Assembly: GCA_023382715.1 (NCBI GenBank)
Contig: JAHDWP010000026.1
Location: 1-46,817, forward strand
Reading direction: 5' to 3'
From: Anaerolineae bacterium
GTDB taxonomy: Bacteria > Chloroflexota > Anaerolineae > Aggregatilineales > Aggregatilineaceae
Length of the DNA stretch: 46,817 nucleotides
Below are positions 8,589-30,484 of this stretch, piece after piece (within the stretch, counting starts at the first letter, position 1; each line of letters starts with the position of its first letter). The notes below the pieces were generated by a model that saw only the letters and a program-made list of their open reading frames with translations, ran no database searches and was not told the origin of the DNA. Position numbers and translations under genes: made by a program.

Positions 8589-11500
8589 CTACGCCTGGCG
8601 CTGGAACGCCAGGAAGCGGACAATCTCGCGGTCACTCAGATCGCGCGGCGGGGCGGCGAAGTAGTATCCGTCCGCCCACAACGGCTGCCCGAAGGCCAGG
8701 TCGGGGAATTCATCGGCGCTGCGCTGCGCGGTGGCGGCCATCAGCCGGGCGATGGCCGCGTCTGGATGGGTCTTCTGCGGCACATCGAGCGACACCAGCA
8801 CGTAATCCGTCTGCACGTCGAGCGCCAGCACCCGCCAGCGATCCGCCTCCGCCGCGTCCACAATCCACTCCCGCAGCGAATCGGCGAATTCGCTGCGCAG
8901 CTCCAGGCGCGGATCATGAGGCACCCACAGGCAGGTATAGCCCGTGTACGGCCCCTCGTCGGTTTGCGGAGCGGCGTCCTGGGCGGGCACGGCAGCCTCG
9001 GCTTCGACAGCGGCGGCGACCGGCTCGGCGGCCAACCCCTCCGGGCGGCGGGGCCTGGTGCGCGCGGCTGGCGCTTCTGCATCGGCAGCGGGCAATTCGG
9101 CCATCAGGTTGAGCGACTCGCCGAGCCGGCGCGCCTGGCGGCGGATGGTGCGCAGAGGGGTGTTGGTGCCGAAGACCATGCTCAGCGTCATGTCCGCCTC
9201 GACGCGCGTGCTATAGAGCAGGAATTCGCCCGCGTCTGGCAGCGCGACGAAGCGGATCAGCGCGTCGGAAGCGGCAGGGCTGGTGCGCCAGGCCGCGTCA
9301 ACCGCGCTGAGCAGCCGCGCAATAGCCGCCGCGGGCAGGTCGCCGGCGCTGGCCAGCAGCCGCCCCGGACGGCTGAGCAGCGTCGCCTGAGCCGAGCTTT
9401 CGAGCGAGTACTGCGTCAGGCGCAGCGCCGCCTGGGCGATGTCCGCGTCGGCGGCGTCCTCGTCTGGTTCTGGGACGGCAGCCGCTCTCTCTGGCGCGTC
9501 TGGCGCAGCGGAACGCTCCCCGGCGGCGAAGGTGGGCGCCGGGGGGGCAAGGGGCGGGGCTGCGACGGGCTGCTCCCAGTCCGGCTCTGGCGAGAGCATC
9601 ACGGCGGGCTGTTCCTCGCTGGCGCCGATCTCTTCCCAGTCCGGCTCTGGCGGAGCCATCTCCGGCAGCGACTCTTCAGGCGGCGCGGACGCAAATGAGT
9701 CCACCGGCTCCGGCCATTGCGGGATCTCGGCGAACTCGAAATCGGCTGGTTCGGCGTCGGACGGCTTCGCGTCGGACGGCTCGGCGAAGTCCCAGGAGTC
9801 CTGGCGCACCCCGGCGTAGAACAGCTCGGCGACGCTGGCTTCTGACACGGAAGCATCGGCGACCAGGTGCGCGGCGTCGGCCAGGTCGCGCAGCTCGTCG
9901 GGGAAGACCTCTTCGCCAAACTCGCCCGCTGATGCAGGCTCTGGCGCGCCGAAGATCGCGTCCAGGTCGAGCGTCGCCGCGTCCGTGTAGGCGTCCGGGG
10001 AGAAGGTCGGGCGCGTGTCTTCGAGCGACGGCTGTGGCTCGCCGCCCTCGGCCCCTTCCATCTCATCGAAGATCGTCTCCAGATCGCGCACGTCGCCAAG
10101 CCCCGCGTCGCTGTCCCACGACGGCAGCGGCTTCAGGCGGGGGCGATCCACCTGCAAGGGGGGAAGCTGTCCTTCGATCTGCTCCAGAAGCTGGGTGAGC
10201 GAAAAATCGTCGCCATCCTCGGCGCTGGCGACCGCGGCAAGGGCCGCCGTAGCCGGGTAATGGCGCGAATCCTGCGGCGTGGTCGGCGGCTCGTCGAACA
10301 GCTCTACCGACTCGCCCAGCGCCGGCCCCGCCGCGTCATCCGGCAGGGCAGACGCTTCGCGCTCGTAGTTGGTCAGCCAGGCCGGGCTGCTATCGTCAAA
10401 GGTCTCTTCGCTCGCCATCTGCTCGGTGGCACCCGGCACGGCGGAGAGCCGGGAGTAGCTCGGCTCATCGTAGTCTTCGTCGCCCACGTCCTCTCCGGCC
10501 AGGGCCGCCAGCACGCCCTCAAAGGACGGCTCGAACAGCCCTTCGATGACATCGCCGATGGTCGTGTCGTCCAGCGCCGCCTCGTCCGGCGCTTCTCCTT
10601 CCTGGATGGGCGGCCCCGCCCGACGGATCGCGTCGAGCACGTAGTCAATGGCCGCGCCGCTGTCGGCGGGCTGCTCTGGCTCGCCGCTGTCGGCAGCGAT
10701 GGACGCCAGCAGCTCGTCGAGCCGCGTGCGCCGCTGTTGGGCGGCGTCGCGCGGGTGCAGCGACTCGACCAGATCGTGAAAAGCGCGATCGTCGGGCGAG
10801 CGCTCGTACTCCTCCGGCGAAGAGCGAGCCACCGCGTCGAGCACATCGTCGAACTCGTCGGCGTCGTGCGCGCTGTAGTCGGTGGCCAGGAATTCGCGCA
10901 GGTCGTCCAGGTCGGGCGACCCCGCGTGCTCCGGCTGGGCAGAGCGCCCCGACCAGGGGCGCGTCTCCAGCAGCGTCCCCAGTGAATCCGTGTCCGCCAG
11001 CCGGCGCGTCTCTTCAGGCTCTTCCCCGTCGTCCAGCAGGCGGGTTTCGGGCGGTTCTTCCACTGAATCGAGCTGGCGCGTGGCCGGCGTTTCTTCCGGC
11101 CAGGCCAGCGCGCTTGTCGCGCCGGACTGCTCTTCAGCATCCCAGGGCAAAACTTCGGCGGCGTCGAGCGCGCGCGTGGTCGGCGCTTCCTCCGGCCAGG
11201 CCAGCGCGCTTGTCGCGCCGGATTGCTCTTCGGCGTCCCAGGACAGGAGATCGGCGACGGGCGATTCTTCGTCTGCGGGGAAAGACTCCGCAAGCGGGCT
11301 GATCGTCTCCCAGTCGCTGCTCTGATCGTCCTGAAGGCGGCCAAGCTGCCCCGTCTGGATGCGCTCGAAGACTTCGAACTCGGTCAGCAGCTCGTCTCCC
11401 TGCAACGGTGACGACTCCGCTTCTTCGCCGGCCAGGGCGTCGCCCGGCCCCCCCAGTTCATCCAGGTCGTGCAATCCCTGCTGAATCTGCGCGCGCTCTT

Positions 11501-12029
11501 CCGCGCTGAAAAGCTCGGTGGGGCGGCGTTCGGGCGCGCTCGGTGGGGATTCTTCGTCCGGCTCGACGGGCGACGACGCGCCCGTCTGCCCCTGAACGAC
11601 AGACGGCATCTCTGGCGGGACAAATTCGTCGCGGACCACGCCATCGGGCGGGGCGATGACCGGCCCTTCTGCGCCGCCGACGAGATCGCGCAGAGAAGCG
11701 ATCAGCTCGCGCGCTGTGAACGGCTTGGCCAGCAGACCCTGCACATCTTCCGCCTGGGCGCGCTCAAGCTGCTCCATATCGTCCGACATCATGATCACGG
11801 GCAGGCCCGGCCTGATCTGGCGGATCACATCCACCAATGCCTGAGACCCTATGTCGGCCAGGTCACAATCGAGCAGGGCGGCGTGATAATGGCTGTGCAG
11901 CAGGGCTTCCTGGGCGGCCTGGCCATTGGCCGCCAGGTTGACGCGAAACTGGCCCGTGCTCTCCAACGCCTGCTTGAGCGTGACAATGAACGAGATATTG
12001 GCATCAATCAGCAAAAGACGAGTGATCAT
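8589..12029 (-). CDS. receiver / acidic linker / Roadblock / inactivated IS200-type transposase-domain fusion
   Basis: A 1,146-residue protein with four parts. Residues 1-117 are a CheY-like receiver with phospho-acceptor Asp54 (HAALLDCD), Ser82 and Lys102 (AKPF). About 740 acidic, Pro/Ala-rich, probably disordered residues follow, with a 32-residue duplication and several TR-x-L-D motifs. Residues 861-975 resemble a Roadblock/LC7 domain. Residues 1028-1146 match the IS200/IS605 Y1 transposase fold: opening strand YTCLWVPHDPRLEL, then LDVQTDYVLVSLDVP, EFPDLAFGQPLWADGYYF and SDREIVRFLAFQ. The HUH pair reads Tyr1076 and Leu1078, and the catalytic Tyr position is Phe1139, so nuclease chemistry is lost. 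Probably a signalling scaffold with a domesticated transposase fold. The ATG has a weak GAGCGGG site; promoter at 12068-12096. Its partner may be one of the histidine kinases at 14.7-19.8 kb (inference). Confidence 0.85.
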   Translation of the reverse strand: MITRLLLIDANISFIVTLKQALESTGQFRVNLAANGQAAQEALLHSHYHAALLDCDLADIGSQALVDVIRQIRPGLPVIMMSDDMEQLERAQAEDVQGLLAKPFTARELIASLRDLVGGAEGPVIAPPDGVVRDEFVPPEMPSVVQGQTGASSPVEPDEESPPSAPERRPTELFSAEERAQIQQGLHDLDELGGPGDALAGEEAESSPLQGDELLTEFEVFERIQTGQLGRLQDDQSSDWETISPLAESFPADEESPVADLLSWDAEEQSGATSALAWPEEAPTTRALDAAEVLPWDAEEQSGATSALAWPEETPATRQLDSVEEPPETRLLDDGEEPEETRRLADTDSLGTLLETRPWSGRSAQPEHAGSPDLDDLREFLATDYSAHDADEFDDVLDAVARSSPEEYERSPDDRAFHDLVESLHPRDAAQQRRTRLDELLASIAADSGEPEQPADSGAAIDYVLDAIRRAGPPIQEGEAPDEAALDDTTIGDVIEGLFEPSFEGVLAALAGEDVGDEDYDEPSYSRLSAVPGATEQMASEETFDDSSPAWLTNYEREASALPDDAAGPALGESVELFDEPPTTPQDSRHYPATAALAAVASAEDGDDFSLTQLLEQIEGQLPPLQVDRPRLKPLPSWDSDAGLGDVRDLETIFDEMEGAEGGEPQPSLEDTRPTFSPDAYTDAATLDLDAIFGAPEPASAGEFGEEVFPDELRDLADAAHLVADASVSEASVAELFYAGVRQDSWDFAEPSDAKPSDAEPADFEFAEIPQWPEPVDSFASAPPEESLPEMAPPEPDWEEIGASEEQPAVMLSPEPDWEQPVAAPPLAPPAPTFAAGERSAAPDAPERAAAVPEPDEDAADADIAQAALRLTQYSLESSAQATLLSRPGRLLASAGDLPAAAIARLLSAVDAAWRTSPAASDALIRFVALPDAGEFLLYSTRVEADMTLSMVFGTNTPLRTIRRQARRLGESLNLMAELPAADAEAPAARTRPRRPEGLAAEPVAAAVEAEAAVPAQDAAPQTDEGPYTGYTCLWVPHDPRLELRSEFADSLREWIVDAAEADRWRVLALDVQTDYVLVSLDVPQKTHPDAAIARLMAATAQRSADEFPDLAFGQPLWADGYYFAAPPRDLSDREIVRFLAFQRQA
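11091..11239. repeat. 96-bp in-frame tandem duplication inside the linker
   Basis: Two near-identical blocks (11091-11143 and 11187-11239) offset by 96 bp encode a repeated WDAEEQSGATSALAWPEE unit followed by a TR-x-LD motif. The linker length has therefore changed by duplication. Confidence 0.8.
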
Positions 12030-21662: not shown

Positions 21663-24491
21663 TCACCCGCGCCCCCATCGCTCCATCTGCGCCCAGCTTG
21701 GCCCGACGTTGGCATCGGCGACCAGCGGCGCGTCCAGCCGGAACGCGGCTTCCATCACCTCGACCACCAGCGGCACGACGCGCTCCAGCTCGTCGTCCGG
21801 CACTTCGAGCACCAGCTCGTCGTGCACCTGCAGGATCATGCGCGCCCGGCGGCGGCTTTCGCGCAGCGCCCGCGCCAGGTCAATCATGGCGATCTTGATG
21901 ATGTCCGCCGCCGTGCCCTGGATCGGCATATTGATCGCTTCGCGCTCGGCGCGCTGCCGCGCCTGGAAGTCCACCTTGCGCCCCAGCTTCTCGCTCAGCT
22001 CCGGGAAATAGCGGCGGCGGCCCAGCAGCGTCTCGACGTAGCCCAGACGAGCGGCGCGCGCGCGCGCCTCGTCCAGGTAGGCGCGCACGCCGGGGAACTG
22101 GGCGAAATAGGCGGCGATGAAATCCTCAGCTTCGGCCAGGGTGAGGTCGCTGTCGCGGGCCAGGCGGAAGGCGCCCATGCCGTACATCAGCCCGAAGTTG
22201 ACCGCCTTGGCGAAGCGGCGCTGCTCGTAGGTCACCTGGTCGAGCGGCACCTGGTAGACGGCGGCGGCGGTCGCCCGGTGAATGTCCACGCCGTCGTGGA
22301 ATGCCTTCAGCAGGGCGGCGTCCTGGCTGTAGTGAGCCAGGATGCGCAGCTCCACCTGGCTGTAGTCCACCGAGAGCAGCCTGTGCCCCGGCGGGGCGAT
22401 GAAAGCCTGGCGCACGCGGCGGCCTTCCTCGCTGCGGATGGGGATGTTCTGCAGGTTCGGGTCGCTGGACGACAGCCGCCCGGTGACGGCGCCCGTCTGG
22501 TTGAAGTTGGTGTGCACGCGCCCGGTGACCGGGTGAACCAGGGCGGGCAGCGCGTCCACGTAGGTGCTGCGCAGCTTGTCCAGCTCGCGCCAGGCCAGGA
22601 TCAGCCCGACGATGGGATGCTGGTCCTTGAGCGCCTCCAGCGTGCTCGCGTCGGTGCTGAAGCCGTGCGTTGTCTTGCGCAGGCCCTCGGTGGGCAGGCG
22701 CAGCTTGCCGAACAGCACGTCGTTGAGCTGCTTGGGACTGCCCAGGTTGAACTCGCCATAGCCGCTGCTGTCGTAAATCTCCTGTTGCAGCGCGGCCAGC
22801 CGCGCGCTCAGGTCGGCGCTGAGCGCGCGCAGATAGGTCACGTCGAGCAGCACCCCGGCCATCTCCATGTCGGCGAGGACCGGCACCAGCGGCATCTCGA
22901 TCTCGCTGAACAGCTTCCACACCTGGCGCTCCTCCAGCTCTGGGCGCAGGATGTCCACCAGGCGGCAGGTGAGGGCGGCGTCGGCGGCGGCGTAGGGTGC
23001 GGCCCGCTCGACCGGCACGCGATCCATCGTGATCTGCTCGCGCCCGGAGCCGATCAGCTCGTCAATGGGCGTCATCTGCGCGCCGGTGCGCACCCAGGCC
23101 AGCGCCTTCAGCCCCAGGTTGCGGCTGGACGGGTCGCTGACCCACTCGGCGATCATCGTGTCGAAGGTGATCGGCGTCACGTCAATGCCGTAGCGGCGCA
23201 GCATCACCAGGTCGTAGCTGGCGTTATGGGCCACTTTGGGGAGGCGTGGGTCGGTCAGGGCGGGGCGCAGCGCAGCGATCACCTTCTCCAGCGGGAGTTG
23301 GCGCGGCGTGTGCCCGGCCAGCAGGTCCGGCTGGCCGGCGGAGCCATGCGGCGGGGCATTGGGCGCGATATGCCCCACAGGGATATAGAAGCCGCCTTCG
23401 CCATCTGTGGCCAGGGAGATGCCCACCAGGTCGGCGCGCATCCGGTCGGTGGAAGTCGTCTCCACGTCGAAGGCGATCATCTCCACCGACTCAAGCTGTC
23501 TGATCAGCGCGGTGAGCACGTCCGGGCTGTCCACGATGGTGAAGTCCACCAGCGGCTCGCGCTCGGCAGCCTGCTGTTGCTCCTGGTGCAGGTCGAACAT
23601 GCTGAGCTGCTGGCCGCCGGGGGCAGGGCGGGGCAGGCGGTCTGCCAGGCTGCGGAACTCCAGCGCCCGGAACAGCGACTCCACATCCTCGTAGCGGTAA
23701 TCGTGGGCGACGCAGGCCGCCAGGTCGAGCGTCACCGGCACGTCGCGCTGGATGTGCGCCAGGTTGCGCGAGAGGAAAGCGCTGTCGCGCTCGGCGGCCA
23801 GCTTGTCGCGCAGCGCCCCCTTGATCGCGTCCAGGTGCTCGTAGACGCCGGCGACGCTGCCGTGCTCGGCGATCAGCCTGGTCGCCGTCTTCTCGCCAAC
23901 GCCCTTCACGCCGGGGATGTTGTCCGACGAGTCGCCCATCAGCCCCTTCATCTCGACCAGTTGCCCCGGCTCCAGCCCGTATTCGGCGCGGAAGCGGGCC
24001 AGGTCCCACAGCTCCGGCCCGTTGCCCTGCCGCCGGGCGGGAAGCTGCACGGTCGTGCGCTCGCTGAGCAGTTGCAGCAGGTCGCGGTCACCGGTGATGA
24101 TGCGCACGTCCACGCCCTGCGCCTCGGCCTGTGGCGCGACGGAGCCGATCACGTCGTCGGCCTCGTAGCCGTCCAATTCCAGGATGGGGACGTTGAAGGC
24201 GGCCACCAGCTCGCGGATGCGGCGGAGCTGGAGGCGCAGGTCGTCGGGCATCTTCTCGCGCGTGCCCTTGTAGTCCGGGTACAGGTCGCCGCGCCCGGAT
24301 AGCCCCTGGTCGAAGCTCACGGCCAGGTAGTCGGGCCGCTCGTCGAGCAGGTCGAGCAGGGTGCGGGCGAAGCCGTAGACGGCGTTGGTCGGCTCGCCGG
24401 CTTTGGTCTGGAAGCCCTGCGCCGGCAGAGCGAAAAACATGCGGTAGGCCAGGGCGTGGCCGTCAATCAGCACGAGGGTAGGGCGGGGCAT
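21663..24491 (-). CDS. polA: DNA polymerase I
   Basis: A complete 942-residue family A polymerase for gap filling, Okazaki-fragment processing and repair. The 5' nuclease domain is N-terminal (VLIDGHALAYRMFFALP, later VKGVGEKTATRLI). The proofreading 3'-5' exonuclease looks active: IAFDVETTSTD supplies the D-x-E pair, then AHNASYD, and APYAAADAAL for the last Asp. The polymerase domain has SVDYSQVELRILAH (motif A), RRFAKAVNFGLMYG (motif B with Lys, Phe and Tyr in place) and LQVHDELVLEV (motif C). The ATG has AGGAGC upstream. It is monocistronic, with repeat-filled gaps on both sides. Confidence 0.98.
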   Translation of the reverse strand: MPRPTLVLIDGHALAYRMFFALPAQGFQTKAGEPTNAVYGFARTLLDLLDERPDYLAVSFDQGLSGRGDLYPDYKGTREKMPDDLRLQLRRIRELVAAFNVPILELDGYEADDVIGSVAPQAEAQGVDVRIITGDRDLLQLLSERTTVQLPARRQGNGPELWDLARFRAEYGLEPGQLVEMKGLMGDSSDNIPGVKGVGEKTATRLIAEHGSVAGVYEHLDAIKGALRDKLAAERDSAFLSRNLAHIQRDVPVTLDLAACVAHDYRYEDVESLFRALEFRSLADRLPRPAPGGQQLSMFDLHQEQQQAAEREPLVDFTIVDSPDVLTALIRQLESVEMIAFDVETTSTDRMRADLVGISLATDGEGGFYIPVGHIAPNAPPHGSAGQPDLLAGHTPRQLPLEKVIAALRPALTDPRLPKVAHNASYDLVMLRRYGIDVTPITFDTMIAEWVSDPSSRNLGLKALAWVRTGAQMTPIDELIGSGREQITMDRVPVERAAPYAAADAALTCRLVDILRPELEERQVWKLFSEIEMPLVPVLADMEMAGVLLDVTYLRALSADLSARLAALQQEIYDSSGYGEFNLGSPKQLNDVLFGKLRLPTEGLRKTTHGFSTDASTLEALKDQHPIVGLILAWRELDKLRSTYVDALPALVHPVTGRVHTNFNQTGAVTGRLSSSDPNLQNIPIRSEEGRRVRQAFIAPPGHRLLSVDYSQVELRILAHYSQDAALLKAFHDGVDIHRATAAAVYQVPLDQVTYEQRRFAKAVNFGLMYGMGAFRLARDSDLTLAEAEDFIAAYFAQFPGVRAYLDEARARAARLGYVETLLGRRRYFPELSEKLGRKVDFQARQRAEREAINMPIQGTAADIIKIAMIDLARALRESRRRARMILQVHDELVLEVPDDELERVVPLVVEVMEAAFRLDAPLVADANVGPSWAQMERWGRG

Positions 24492-27206: not shown

Positions 27207-27299
27207 GGTTGCAACAAGCGCACTCATCGTAGAACGCAATGAGACGAAATTCATCGAGTCATGCATCCGGTTCTTGCACCAACCCAAAGGAGTTCCTTA

Positions 27300-28136
27300 A
27301 TGACCAGAAAAGTCGCGATTTCAATTATCCTGATTGGTTTGCTCGTAGGGTTCATCGTCGTGCCCGCCCAGGCCGACATCGCCGGGTCTGCCCTGAGCGC
27401 GGTCAGCCCGGCCCCTGTAGTCTATGGCACGACATTCGACATCACCTTCACCGTCAACCTCCTCTCCTCAGACTACGAGTTCCTGGACTTCGTGGACGTG
27501 ACCGTTCCCAGCCAATGGACGATCAACACCGTCTACAACACACCCGCTAGCTCAAATTTTTCCTGCGTCACTTCTACCCAGGGCACGGTGGGCCAGACCA
27601 TCTTCTGGGCCACTGGCTGTCCCTTTGCTACTGGTCAAGGTGCCTGGCTCCCCGGAACGATCAACTTCGTGGCCAACGTGACCGTCACCAGTTGTGAGGG
27701 CGCGCCATGGTCCCTCCCCTGGAACCTCAACGGGGATGAATGGCTGATAGCTGTCCCGCCCCACAACGTCTCCGGCACCTACCCCATCAGCGTAGTAGGC
27801 TGCCCAGGATCGGAGCCGGTCGTCGTACCCGGCTGCGACGCCCTGCTGCCCATCCCGGCGACGGCGGTCGGGGGGACGTTCGTGGCCGATGCGCCGGTTT
27901 ACTGGGCGCCGGGCGAGCTGACCAATCCGCTGGTGACGATCGCGGCGGGCAACTCGGCCCGCGTGCTCGGCCTGGACGCCAGCGGGGAGTACTACCAGAT
28001 CATCTGGGGATGCAACTTCCTGTGGGTGCCCAAAGCGACGCTGGGGCCGAACTACGACGCGGTGTGGCACGGCGCACCGCTGCCGACAGGCGTGATCGAG
28101 GTCCCGGTTGCCGGTGCGCGGGATGGAGGGGGATAG
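27300..28136 (+). CDS. secreted SH3-like family protein, member C
   Basis: A 278-residue exported protein. The signal peptide (1-25) ends VVPAQA. The following domain (26-175) looks like a DUF11-type or adhesin-like beta sandwich (SPAPVVYGTTFDITFTVN, DVTVPSQWTINTVYNTP, VANVTVTSCEGAPW). The constant SH3-like module follows from CDALLPIPATAVGG. The first about 160 bp and the last about 325 bp are almost identical to members D and E, whereas the middle differs at many residues and by small insertions, giving a mosaic. AAAGGAG precedes the ATG. It ends with a Gly-rich tail (VPVAGARDGGG) not present in A or B. Function is unknown. Confidence 0.88.
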   Translation: MTRKVAISIILIGLLVGFIVVPAQADIAGSALSAVSPAPVVYGTTFDITFTVNLLSSDYEFLDFVDVTVPSQWTINTVYNTPASSNFSCVTSTQGTVGQTIFWATGCPFATGQGAWLPGTINFVANVTVTSCEGAPWSLPWNLNGDEWLIAVPPHNVSGTYPISVVGCPGSEPVVVPGCDALLPIPATAVGGTFVADAPVYWAPGELTNPLVTIAAGNSARVLGLDASGEYYQIIWGCNFLWVPKATLGPNYDAVWHGAPLPTGVIEVPVAGARDGGG

Positions 28137-28217
28137 CGCTGATGCACGCAGGGCTGCGGCGCCCGCCAGCGCAGTGACCGCAGTCAAGGCGTGACAGCAG
28201 TCCAGCCAAGACAAGCA

Positions 28218-28242
28218 GCGCCCCGGAGAGCATCCGGGGCGC
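28218..28242 (+). terminator. terminator of member C
   Basis: A 9-bp stem GCGCCCCGG/CCGGGGCGC with loop AGAGCAT, followed by TTCACTCC. The T-tract is weak. Confidence 0.7.
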
Positions 28243-28292
28243 TTCACTCCTGCAACAGGGTGCCAGCACCAGGCGATTGGGCCTCGCACCGC

Positions 28293-28321
28293 TTATCTGT
28301 GCACAGTAAATCCTGTATACT
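28293..28321 (+). promoter_or_regulatory. promoter of member D
   Basis: TTATCT, 17-bp spacer, TATACT. A 10-bp palindrome CTGTGCACAG (28297-28306) overlaps the -35 and could be an operator. Confidence 0.55.
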
Positions 28322-28398
28322 AGCTTGTGAGTTTGTTCACTGATCGTCATGTCTAACGGGCGGTACCAGCTCTTGCACCTGATAAAAGGAGTTCCTCC

Positions 28399-29253
28399 AT
28401 GACCAGAAAAGTCGCGATTTCAATTATCCTGATTGGTTTGCTCGTAGGGTTCATCGTCGTGCCCGCCCAGGCCGACATCGCCGGGTCTGCCCTGAGCGCG
28501 GTCAGCCCGGCCCCTGTAGTCTATGGCACGACATTCGACATCACCTTTACCGTCAACTTCATCTCACCGGGTGGTGTGCACACTGGCGAATACATGGACT
28601 ACATGGACGTGACCGTTCCCGATCAGTGGACGATCAACGCGGTCTACAACACACCCCACACAATTCCCGACGGCTTCGAGGGCTGCACCAGCACGTCCGA
28701 GGGCACGCTGGGCCAGACCATCTACTGGGCCTCTGCCTGTACCGGCGACTTGGCAGGTGCCTGGCCTCCGGGAACGGTTGATTTTGTGGCCAATGTGACC
28801 GTCACTAGTTGTGAGGGCGCGCCATGGTCCCTCCCCTGGAACATCAGCGGAGATGAATGGAGGTACATCCCGCCCCACGACGTCTCAGGCAACTACTTAA
28901 TAGGCTGCTCAGTGCCAGGGCCAGATCCGGAGCCGGTCGTCGTACCCGGCTGCGACGCCCTGCTGCCCATCCCGGCGACGGCGGTCGGGGGGACGTTCGT
29001 GGCCGATGCGCCGGTTTACTGGGCGCCGGGCGAGCTGACCAATCCGCTGGTGACGATCGCGGCGGGCAACTCGGCCCGCGTGCTCGGCCTGGACGCCAGC
29101 GGGGAGTACTACCAGATCATCTGGGGATGCAACTTCCTGTGGGTGCCCAAAGCGACGCTGGGGCCGAACTACGACGCGGTGTGGCACGGCGCACCGCTGC
29201 CGACAGGCGTGATCGAGGTCCCGGTTGCCGGTGCGCGGGATGGAGGGGGATAG
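28399..29253 (+). CDS. secreted SH3-like family protein, member D
   Basis: A 284-residue exported protein with the same plan as member C: signal peptide ending VVPAQA, a beta-sandwich domain with a different central stretch (SPGGVHTGEYMDYMDVTVP, SEGTLGQTIYWASACTG), and the constant SH3-like module with a Gly-rich tail. AAAGGAG precedes the ATG. The coding sequence is identical to member E. Small differences from member C cluster in the middle third, the part expected to be the exposed domain. Confidence 0.88.
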   Translation: MTRKVAISIILIGLLVGFIVVPAQADIAGSALSAVSPAPVVYGTTFDITFTVNFISPGGVHTGEYMDYMDVTVPDQWTINAVYNTPHTIPDGFEGCTSTSEGTLGQTIYWASACTGDLAGAWPPGTVDFVANVTVTSCEGAPWSLPWNISGDEWRYIPPHDVSGNYLIGCSVPGPDPEPVVVPGCDALLPIPATAVGGTFVADAPVYWAPGELTNPLVTIAAGNSARVLGLDASGEYYQIIWGCNFLWVPKATLGPNYDAVWHGAPLPTGVIEVPVAGARDGGG

Positions 29254-29334
29254 CGCTGATGCACGCAGGGCTGCGGCGCCCGCCAGCGCAGTGACCGCAG
29301 TCAAGGCGTGACAGCAGTCCAGCCAAGACAAGCA

Positions 29335-29359
29335 GCGCCCCGGAGAGCATCCGGGGCGC
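29335..29359 (+). terminator. terminator of member D
   Basis: Exact copy, 1,117 bp on, of the hairpin at 28218. Confidence 0.7.
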
Positions 29360-29409
29360 TTCACTCCTGCAACAGGGTGCCAGCACCAGGCGATTGGGCC
29401 TCGCACCGC

Positions 29410-29438
29410 TTATCTGTGCACAGTAAATCCTGTATACT
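29410..29438 (+). promoter_or_regulatory. promoter of member E
   Basis: Exact copy of the element at 28293-28321, including the overlapping palindrome. Confidence 0.55.
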
Positions 29439-29515
29439 AGCTTGTGAGTTTGTTCACTGATCGTCATGTCTAACGGGCGGTACCAGCTCTTGCACCTGAT
29501 AAAAGGAGTTCCTCC

Positions 29516-30370
29516 ATGACCAGAAAAGTCGCGATTTCAATTATCCTGATTGGTTTGCTCGTAGGGTTCATCGTCGTGCCCGCCCAGGCCGACATCGCCG
29601 GGTCTGCCCTGAGCGCGGTCAGCCCGGCCCCTGTAGTCTATGGCACGACATTCGACATCACCTTTACCGTCAACTTCATCTCACCGGGTGGTGTGCACAC
29701 TGGCGAATACATGGACTACATGGACGTGACCGTTCCCGATCAGTGGACGATCAACGCGGTCTACAACACACCCCACACAATTCCCGACGGCTTCGAGGGC
29801 TGCACCAGCACGTCCGAGGGCACGCTGGGCCAGACCATCTACTGGGCCTCTGCCTGTACCGGCGACTTGGCAGGTGCCTGGCCTCCGGGAACGGTTGATT
29901 TTGTGGCCAATGTGACCGTCACTAGTTGTGAGGGCGCGCCATGGTCCCTCCCCTGGAACATCAGCGGAGATGAATGGAGGTACATCCCGCCCCACGACGT
30001 CTCAGGCAACTACTTAATAGGCTGCTCAGTGCCAGGGCCAGATCCGGAGCCGGTCGTCGTACCCGGCTGCGACGCCCTGCTGCCCATCCCGGCGACGGCG
30101 GTCGGGGGGACGTTCGTGGCCGATGCGCCGGTTTACTGGGCGCCGGGCGAGCTGACCAATCCGCTGGTGACGATCGCGGCGGGCAACTCGGCCCGCGTGC
30201 TCGGCCTGGACGCCAGCGGGGAGTACTACCAGATCATCTGGGGATGCAACTTCCTGTGGGTGCCCAAAGCGACGCTGGGGCCGAACTACGACGCGGTGTG
30301 GCACGGCGCACCGCTGCCGACAGGCGTGATCGAGGTCCCGGTTGCCGGTGCGCGGGATGGAGGGGGATAG
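29516..30370 (+). CDS. secreted SH3-like family protein, member E (exact duplicate of D)
   Basis: 284 residues, identical in protein and DNA to member D, including leader, promoter and ribosome site. Lack of even silent differences means the copy is very recent, is being homogenised by recombination, or is an assembly error. If real, it doubles the dose of one family member. Confidence 0.85.
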   Translation: MTRKVAISIILIGLLVGFIVVPAQADIAGSALSAVSPAPVVYGTTFDITFTVNFISPGGVHTGEYMDYMDVTVPDQWTINAVYNTPHTIPDGFEGCTSTSEGTLGQTIYWASACTGDLAGAWPPGTVDFVANVTVTSCEGAPWSLPWNISGDEWRYIPPHDVSGNYLIGCSVPGPDPEPVVVPGCDALLPIPATAVGGTFVADAPVYWAPGELTNPLVTIAAGNSARVLGLDASGEYYQIIWGCNFLWVPKATLGPNYDAVWHGAPLPTGVIEVPVAGARDGGG

Positions 30371-30452
30371 CGCTGATGCACGCAGGGCTGCGGCGCCCGC
30401 CAGCGCAGTGACCGCAGTCAAGGCGTGACAGCAGTCCAGCCAAGACAAGCAG

Positions 30453-30484
30453 CGCCCCGGAGAGCATCCGGGGCGTTTGTTATT
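30453..30484 (+). terminator. terminator of member E
   Basis: Same stem CGCCCCGG/CCGGGGCG, followed here by TTTGTTATT, a better T-tract than in the duplicated copies. Confidence 0.8.

Follow-up and report, generated by a model that had tools for sequence, protein, structure and literature searches.

A dead IS200/IS605 transposase fold fused to receiver and Roadblock-like domains in Anaerolineae

Accounts of transposase domestication usually concern proteins in which DNA binding or catalysis has been retained, and both domestication and odd outputs of response regulators are already known as kinds. Here, we describe a protein in which a transposase fold persists without its catalytic residues. 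The gene is located on the minus strand at positions 8589..12029 (1146 aa, ATG start, stop codon included in the coordinates) of a 46,817-nucleotide stretch of contig JAHDWP010000026.1 from an Anaerolineae bacterium (GenBank assembly GCA_023382715.1); this whole stretch is referred to as the window. Its product comprises a receiver domain, an acidic linker, a Roadblock-like domain, and a C-terminal dead Y1 domain. The last of these shares its fold, length, and element order with the TnpA transposases of IS200/IS605 elements (PF01797; 2f4f, 2ec2, ISDra2 2xm3, and IS608 2a6m/2vju), and Trp1118 and Tyr1122 are conserved as in those enzymes. Unlike IS200/IS605 TnpA, the dead family has no HUH pair, mostly carries Phe in place of the nucleophilic Tyr, and has lost a His and an Arg specific to the live enzymes. 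The dead Y1 domains of the window's order also carry negative charge, and the domain shares its open reading frame (ORF) with a Roadblock-like domain and, in 87 of the 89 members collected, with a receiver. A published survey of Y1 proteins was confined to those carrying both the HuH and the Y motif and excluded long fusions (PMC6006769; this and the papers below are cited from excerpts), and it therefore could not show this family. The TnpA-REP/RAYT proteins resemble it as host-kept Y1 descendants (PMC8266576), but the structural match of the window domain drops to a Z of 8.1 for them (4er8). The available excerpts of open-licence PubMed Central papers yielded no description of a Y1 domain that serves, without catalysis, as a stable signaling module.

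For the remainder of the protein, one of the closest described systems is that of Myxococcus, in which the response regulator RomR and the homodimeric Roadblock protein MglB/MglC act on one GTPase (PMC9481161, PMC4316618); the excerpts of these accounts mention no Y1 domain. Here, the receiver and the Roadblock-like fold are contained in one chain, unlike the separate RomR and MglB/MglC, and a GTPase partner is only a candidate. We know of no link between RomR or MglB/MglC and polA. The Streptomyces conservons likewise tie a Roadblock domain to signaling, in their case to a histidine kinase; their kinase, Roadblock, and GTPase components are separate genes, and, going by the excerpts, a conservon contains no response regulator, nor is a transposase fold mentioned there (PMC4316618).

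The C-terminal domain: fold, family, and lost catalysis

An earlier note on this DNA, made from the sequence alone, had read the C-terminus as a Y1/HUH transposase fold. This reading was confirmed by Pfam, profile–profile comparison, a PDB profile search, and the predicted structure. The domain spans residues 1027–1146 (8592..8951, minus strand). Residues 1031–1125 match Pfam Y1_Tnp (PF01797) with 29.1 bits (cut-off 23, E 1.2e-6), and the C-terminal part searched alone gives E 1.9e-8; a match was obtained in 29 of 30 relatives at E <=1 and in 24 at E <=1e-4. In hhalign, a profile of the dead domains aligned with 11 live transposases of the same order at a probability of 99.3% (E 1.3e-20), as compared with 0.2% for a control alignment of the Roadblock region. 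In a PDB search with the profile of 30 relatives, the best eight matches were all TnpA chains (best E 1.5e-20), and the remaining four had E values of 0.04 or worse (ninth, 0.043). An AlphaFold2 (AF2) model of residues 857–1146, built from three near-identical sequences (the window and the loci L003 and L004), displays the Roadblock element order followed by that of Y1, and Foldseek ranks IS200 transposases (2f4f, E 1.3e-6) and MglB (6izw, E 1.5e-5) as its closest matches. The Y1 part modeled apart (predicted local distance difference test, pLDDT, 69.4) matches 15 IS200/IS605 TnpA entries with VIA Z scores of 12.6–14.4 over 103–118 residues, after which the score falls to 8.1 for the RAYT protein 4er8 and to 7.5 or less for unrelated proteins. 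The C-terminal domain of the window protein is an IS200/IS605 TnpA (Y1) fold, and the match lies beyond chance. An unrelated ferredoxin-like fold is ruled out by the gap in Z (12.6 versus 7.5–8.1) and by the eight clear profile hits, all to TnpA.

The family was collected from searches of 298 genomes of the class (with the protein), 121 of the order (PF01797), and 400 of the phylum (dead-domain profile). The fused loci are a selection among the matches listed in these searches; 123 fused ORFs were reduced to 89 distinct members after merging identical C-termini. All 89 carry the Roadblock-like and Y1 parts in one ORF and belong to Anaerolineae, and 87 contain the receiver in the same ORF. They span ten families, f1–f5 and f61 in the window's order and f32, f39, f56, and f62 elsewhere in the class; the domain order described by the earlier note recurs in other Chloroflexota. 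The fused forms among the listed phylum matches all belong to Anaerolineae, and a contig scan with the full protein returned two close relatives, an Anaerolineae metagenome-assembled genome (MAG) and a MAG labeled Thermoflexus sp. Among the order matches listed, a genome usually holds one fused gene; G262, from the class search, holds two. Read-through of an ordinary transposase gene is ruled out, as each of the 89 fused ORFs holds both the Roadblock and the Y1 profiles.

The columns of the hidden Markov model (HMM) place Asp-Tyr-Val-Leu at residues 1075–1078 (8796..8807, minus strand) in place of Asp-His-x-His, with Tyr1076 and Leu1078 in the columns of the HUH pair, and Phe1139 (8613..8615, minus strand) at the position of the nucleophilic Tyr. 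These are the assignments that the earlier note had made, and all three catalytic residues are lost in the window. Across the family, the two histidines never occur together (0/89) and one of them is retained in four members, but the nucleophile column holds Tyr in 25 members (Phe in 60, Leu in 2, Val in 1, and a gap in 1), so that complete loss applies to the window and only in part to the family. Since the same HMM recovers 15 transposases with DH[VIG]H, the search is not biased against the HUH motif. The window protein does retain Gln1143, which occupies the place of the third metal ligand in Y1 enzymes (Y---Q; PMC6006769). Several other residues are invariant or nearly so, namely Trp1118 (89/89), Trp1065 (87/89), Tyr1122 (86/89), and Arg1144 (82/89). 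The His of beta-1 and the Arg of the PKxR motif, each present in 15 of 15 live enzymes, are found in none of the 89 dead domains. Net charge averages +5.7 in the 15 live domains (range 2 to 13). The window's order has 61 members, of which 60 average −8.0 (range −19 to 0; the one omitted row has a charge of −8), and the window domain itself carries −9. The ratio of nonsynonymous to synonymous substitution rates (dN/dS) of the Y1 domain is 0.154 relative to L003 and 0.130 relative to L004, with 0.277 and 0.289 for the linker. At the level of these sequence comparisons, the domain is shown to be under purifying selection among close relatives.

The window genome contains one fused gene, and the single further PF01797 match in it is an open frame of 131 aa whose HUH motif is intact. 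Among 19 further matches in small ORFs, the HUH pair is intact in 17. The two others, at L165:502-903 (-) and L169:384-791 (-), are stand-alone transposase-type proteins that lie outside the dead clade and lack the full pair; they possibly represent separate losses of catalysis.

The other domains and the origin of the fusion

The receiver domain comprises residues 1–120 (11670..12029, minus strand), of which residues 6–113 match Pfam Response_reg (E 7.9e-12). Its pocket retains Asp9, Asp54, Ser82, and Lys102. Ala10 follows Asp9, at what we take, from CheY, to be the usual place of the second acidic Mg-binding residue. The Asp54/Lys102 pair that the earlier note had called intact is thus present, but the pocket is intact only in part. 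In an alignment of 33 receivers, the Asp54 column holds Asp in 30, the Asp9 column holds Asp in 11, and the Lys102 column holds Lys in 20; in view of the latter two columns, many receivers of the family are probably atypical.

The linker extends over 735 residues (121–855; 9465..11669, minus strand) without a Pfam domain. It contains 179 Asp/Glu versus 36 Lys/Arg residues, corresponding to a net charge of −143, and is presumed to be disordered. A search of 86 linkers, which left out 3 of the 89 with 50 residues or fewer, yielded two conserved motifs on the minus strand. Motif 1 (residues 489–514; 10488..10565) and motif 2 (residues 611–638, ending in RPxLKPLPSW; 10116..10199) were found at a lenient threshold in 35/86 and 43/86 linkers, respectively. 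The acidic linker also contains an exact 18-residue repeat (P0001 residues 264–281 and 296–313; window ~11091–11240).

The Roadblock/MglB-like domain encompasses residues 861–980 (9090..9449, minus strand). In the AF2 model, its elements follow the order H-E-E-H-E-E-E-H (alpha-beta-beta-alpha-beta-beta-beta-alpha), and MglB is among its top Foldseek matches (E 1.5e-5). At the sequence level, Pfam Robl_LC7 gave no match in the window and matched 1 of 30 members at E 0.067, while L032, a receiver–Roadblock relative, scored 18.8 bits, below the cut-off of 23. A PDB profile search with the region reached MglB at only E 0.024, and hhalign of the Roadblock profile against the window genome's own Robl_LC7 protein gave no signal (probability 0.3%). 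The Roadblock-like domain proposed by the earlier note therefore stands by predicted fold and is weak by sequence.

A phylogenetic tree was built from 94 domains, consisting of 51 dead fused domains (thinned from 89 at 72% identity), 8 stand-alone dead domains, 34 of transposase type (including L165 and L169, which lack the full HUH pair), and one odd fusion. The 59 fused and stand-alone dead domains lie on one side of a branch with support of 99/94. If the root lies among the transposases, this topology is consistent with one old domestication and a single loss of catalysis. The groups in the tree follow families, and the window genome's own IS200 gene falls among the live enzymes. Within the f32/f56 group are nested the stand-alone dead domains from f32 genomes, which were thus probably copied out later. 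A clade of the dead fused rows alone was rejected by the approximately unbiased (AU) test (p 0.011); in the tree, the stand-alone copies lie among them. Receiver–Roadblock proteins without Y1 exist in families f15, f21, and f57 (L032, L033, L159, G009, and, as judged by open-frame length, G267, G276, and G285), which suggests that Y1 probably joined an older receiver–Roadblock protein.

Y1 domains were also seen in other ORFs. A squalene-hopene-cyclase-like protein (L119:1274-3400 (+), G332) bears a C-terminal Y1 domain (68 bits) that retains one His and the Tyr; it is a separate fusion that, in the tree, falls where live and dead domains meet. An Eco57I-type restriction-modification methylase ORF (L102:5636-9397 (-)) contains a Y1 domain with DHVH, and a similar Y1 stretch near L106 8463-8660 (+) lies inside a 663-aa ORF.

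Neighborhoods of the fused and stand-alone genes

Pairing with polA, defined as polA directly downstream on the same strand with a gap of <500, was evaluated at 84 loci after exclusion of 5 of the 89 with <800 bases downstream. In 50 of the 84, the fused gene immediately precedes polA, with a median distance of 100 nt from its stop to the first Met. By family, the pairing occurs in 22/24 loci of f32, 20/30 of f2, 4/4 of f4, 2/2 of f56, 1/14 of f1, and 1/6 of f3, and in none of the single members of f5, f39, f61, and f62. polA lies further downstream in 10 of the 84 loci, and 24 have no polA on that strand within the fetched stretch, which is only ~1.5 kb in some cases. In the window, polA is encoded at 21666..24491 on the minus strand (Pfam DNA_pol_A, E 1.4e-152, with both exonuclease domains), and the pairing is absent from the window's genus as far as seen. 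Judged from gene order, the pairing looks like a signaling gene in an apparent polA operon, and it points to DNA synthesis or repair as a link that is not essential, given the unpaired window genome.

From the matches listed, nine genomes with a receiver–Roadblock gene that lacks Y1 were followed up, and in four of them this gene is next to polA. In G009, the stop of this gene and the start of polA overlap by 4 nt, and in G267, G276, and G285 the two genes adjoin by coordinates; they are ~8 kb apart on the same contig in G121 and on different contigs in G045, G077, G101, and G177. Across 22 genomes, most of them chosen because the fused gene is missing or distant, a Roadblock-profile gene occurs just upstream of polA in one (G009). 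A 145-aa ORF just upstream of polA in G178 (L190:4547-4981 (-)) is receiver-like by eye, has no Pfam match, and is perhaps a remnant of the fused gene. No functional lead came from the conserved upstream neighbors (a CARDB/SH3 protein and a UPF0004/radical-SAM protein read as miaB) or from carbamoyltransferase and TPR genes.

In f32 genomes, four of the stand-alone dead Y1 genes belong to a conserved run with genes for an Mrr-type restriction nuclease, a TPR protein, and a 7TM/PAS/GAF histidine kinase. The run occupies L077:4273-9371 (by Pfam) and L078:3327-8224 and L082:3679-8548 (by BLAST to L077), while in L079:4923-9199 one extra ORF lies in between and the kinase was not seen. It is possibly an undescribed signaling or defense unit. 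In L080, a stand-alone domain adjoins a receiver-kinase and an OmpR-type regulator, and others lie beside genes for methyl-accepting chemotaxis proteins (MCPs), in L081 with CheW, MotA, and MotB and in L083 with an MCP.

A Ras/Arf-like GTPase gene follows a DUF4388 gene in the window genome (L180:390-1890, G000:C46), the GTPase gene itself being located at G000:C46:11248-11781; we take DUF4388 to be PATAN-related. According to the excerpts of one account (PMC4316618), the genes of MglA groups 1 and 5 lie close to those for PATAN proteins. Pfam Roc gave no MglA-type GTPase above the cut-off, and the GTPase was found with Arf instead. Such matches occur in 158 of 296 class genomes sampled and, by hand count, in 27 of 31 genomes with a recognized fusion.

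Proposed role, its alternatives, and a further feature of the window

We consider it reasonably probable that these proteins are conserved signaling adaptors of Anaerolineae with a captured, non-cutting transposase fold as the C-terminal interaction domain. An IS200/IS605 transposase fold would have been captured, probably once and long ago, with subsequent loss of the cleavage residues. The adaptor, presumably cytoplasmic, would take its signal through Asp54 of the receiver, in many members probably without normal phosphorylation since the acidic pocket is incomplete, and the long acidic linker would carry short docking motifs. Because the studied relatives of both domains are dimeric, with MglB a homodimer (PMC9481161) and TnpA forming dimers (PMC6006769), the Roadblock-like and dead Y1 domains may by analogy keep the protein dimeric and contact its partner proteins. 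In this scheme, the dead Y1 domain would serve as a dimerization or docking module and not as an endonuclease, and in the window's order it is probably not a nucleic-acid binder; this role is favored over DNA binding because two residues invariant in the live enzymes are lost and the domain is negatively charged in that order. The Roadblock-like domain possibly partners with a Ras-like GTPase encoded elsewhere. The pairing with polA suggests that the ancestral receiver–Roadblock protein, to which Y1 was added later, may have had a part in the production or function of DNA polymerase I. The recruitment of a mobile-element fold into signaling, as proposed in the earlier note, is supported by the 89 conserved homologs, 87 of them with a receiver, and by the stand-alone copies beside signaling genes. 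The family would add a new case to those in which cells have reused mobile DNA for regulation, and it provides a test case for the usefulness of the HUH fold without catalysis. Ten families of one class keep Y1 domains without the HUH pair, one of them also has stand-alone forms, and a link to polA is frequent; the receiver–Roadblock–Y1 family places a signaling gene in an apparent polA operon.

Several observations weigh against this reading. The AF2 models are of middling confidence (pLDDT 61.6 and 69.4), and both hold a stretch with pLDDT <50 near the C-terminus. Two f32 members (G130 and G223) carry no receiver in their ORF, and, relative to the more distant L095, dN/dS of the Y1 domain (0.341) is no lower than that of the linker (0.355). 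Net charge averages +2.4 in the 24 members of f32, and Tyr is present in 25 of 89 members; these data do not establish that nucleic-acid binding is lost throughout the family. A GTPase match is absent from the fusion genomes G191, G252, G288, and G034. In the window genome, 9.6 kb separate the fused gene from polA, which lies upstream of it; in the closest relatives L003 and L004, polA is 2 kb away on the other strand, and only one of the 14 evaluable f1 loci adjoins polA; coupling to polA is therefore not needed here.

The dead Y1 domain might instead still bind structured single-stranded DNA or RNA without cleavage, making the protein a response regulator whose output acts at replication or repair sites with Pol I. 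Such binding would accord with the kept fold, the Gln1143 retained in the window, and the polA neighbor, with f32, in which the mean charge is positive and 22 of 24 genes adjoin polA, and with the four stand-alone copies in runs with an Mrr-type nuclease gene. It seems unlikely, as all 89 members have lost the beta-1 His and the PKxR Arg and the net charge of the window domain is −9. The beta-clamp docking motif QL[SD]LF, which is named yet not conserved in TnpA either (PMC6006769), was rejected as it occurs in 0/89 members. The DNA- or RNA-binding part of the function suggested in the earlier note is weakened by the same two residues and by the shift in mean charge from the live enzymes to the window's order, although the mean of f32 stays positive. 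Another possibility, which we regard as doubtful, is that the Roadblock-like domain is the working part and that the protein regulates, in the manner of MglB/RomR, the Ras-like GTPase whose gene adjoins DUF4388, in which case Y1 would only fix the oligomeric state and the polA pairing would be old synteny without function. In the fold comparison, the top Roadblock match is MglB, the GTPase is found in most fusion genomes (27/31, versus 158/296 in the class), and in Myxococcus RomR, named a response regulator (PMC4316618), acts with MglB on MglA (PMC9481161). Four fusion genomes have no GTPase match, however, the sequence similarity to MglB is weak, and the fused gene and the GTPase gene stand side by side at no locus read, though no search was aimed at that arrangement.

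That the Y1 domain is a recent, decaying, functionless IS200 insertion is a negligible prospect. An intact IS200-type transposase gene does exist elsewhere in the window genome, but it groups with the live enzymes, from which a deep split separates the dead domains; together with the 89 distinct members in ten families, the invariant Trp, and the low dN/dS among close relatives, this rules out such an insertion. In a further reading, which we consider improbable, a two-component-type regulator made together with DNA polymerase I would use the domesticated, dead transposase fold to recognize a replication or repair structure or machine, so that signaling would directly control the work of Pol I across much of the class, and the dead domain would then have been copied out as a stand-alone signaling module beside kinases, chemoreceptors, and Mrr-type nucleases.

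Elsewhere in the window, positions 27821–30462 contain an exact tandem duplication with a unit of 1117 bp and copies that are 100% identical, each encoding a 284-aa secreted-looking ORF without a Pfam match. It is preceded by a diverged third paralog (27261–28136), and the duplication is either a recent event or an assembly artifact.

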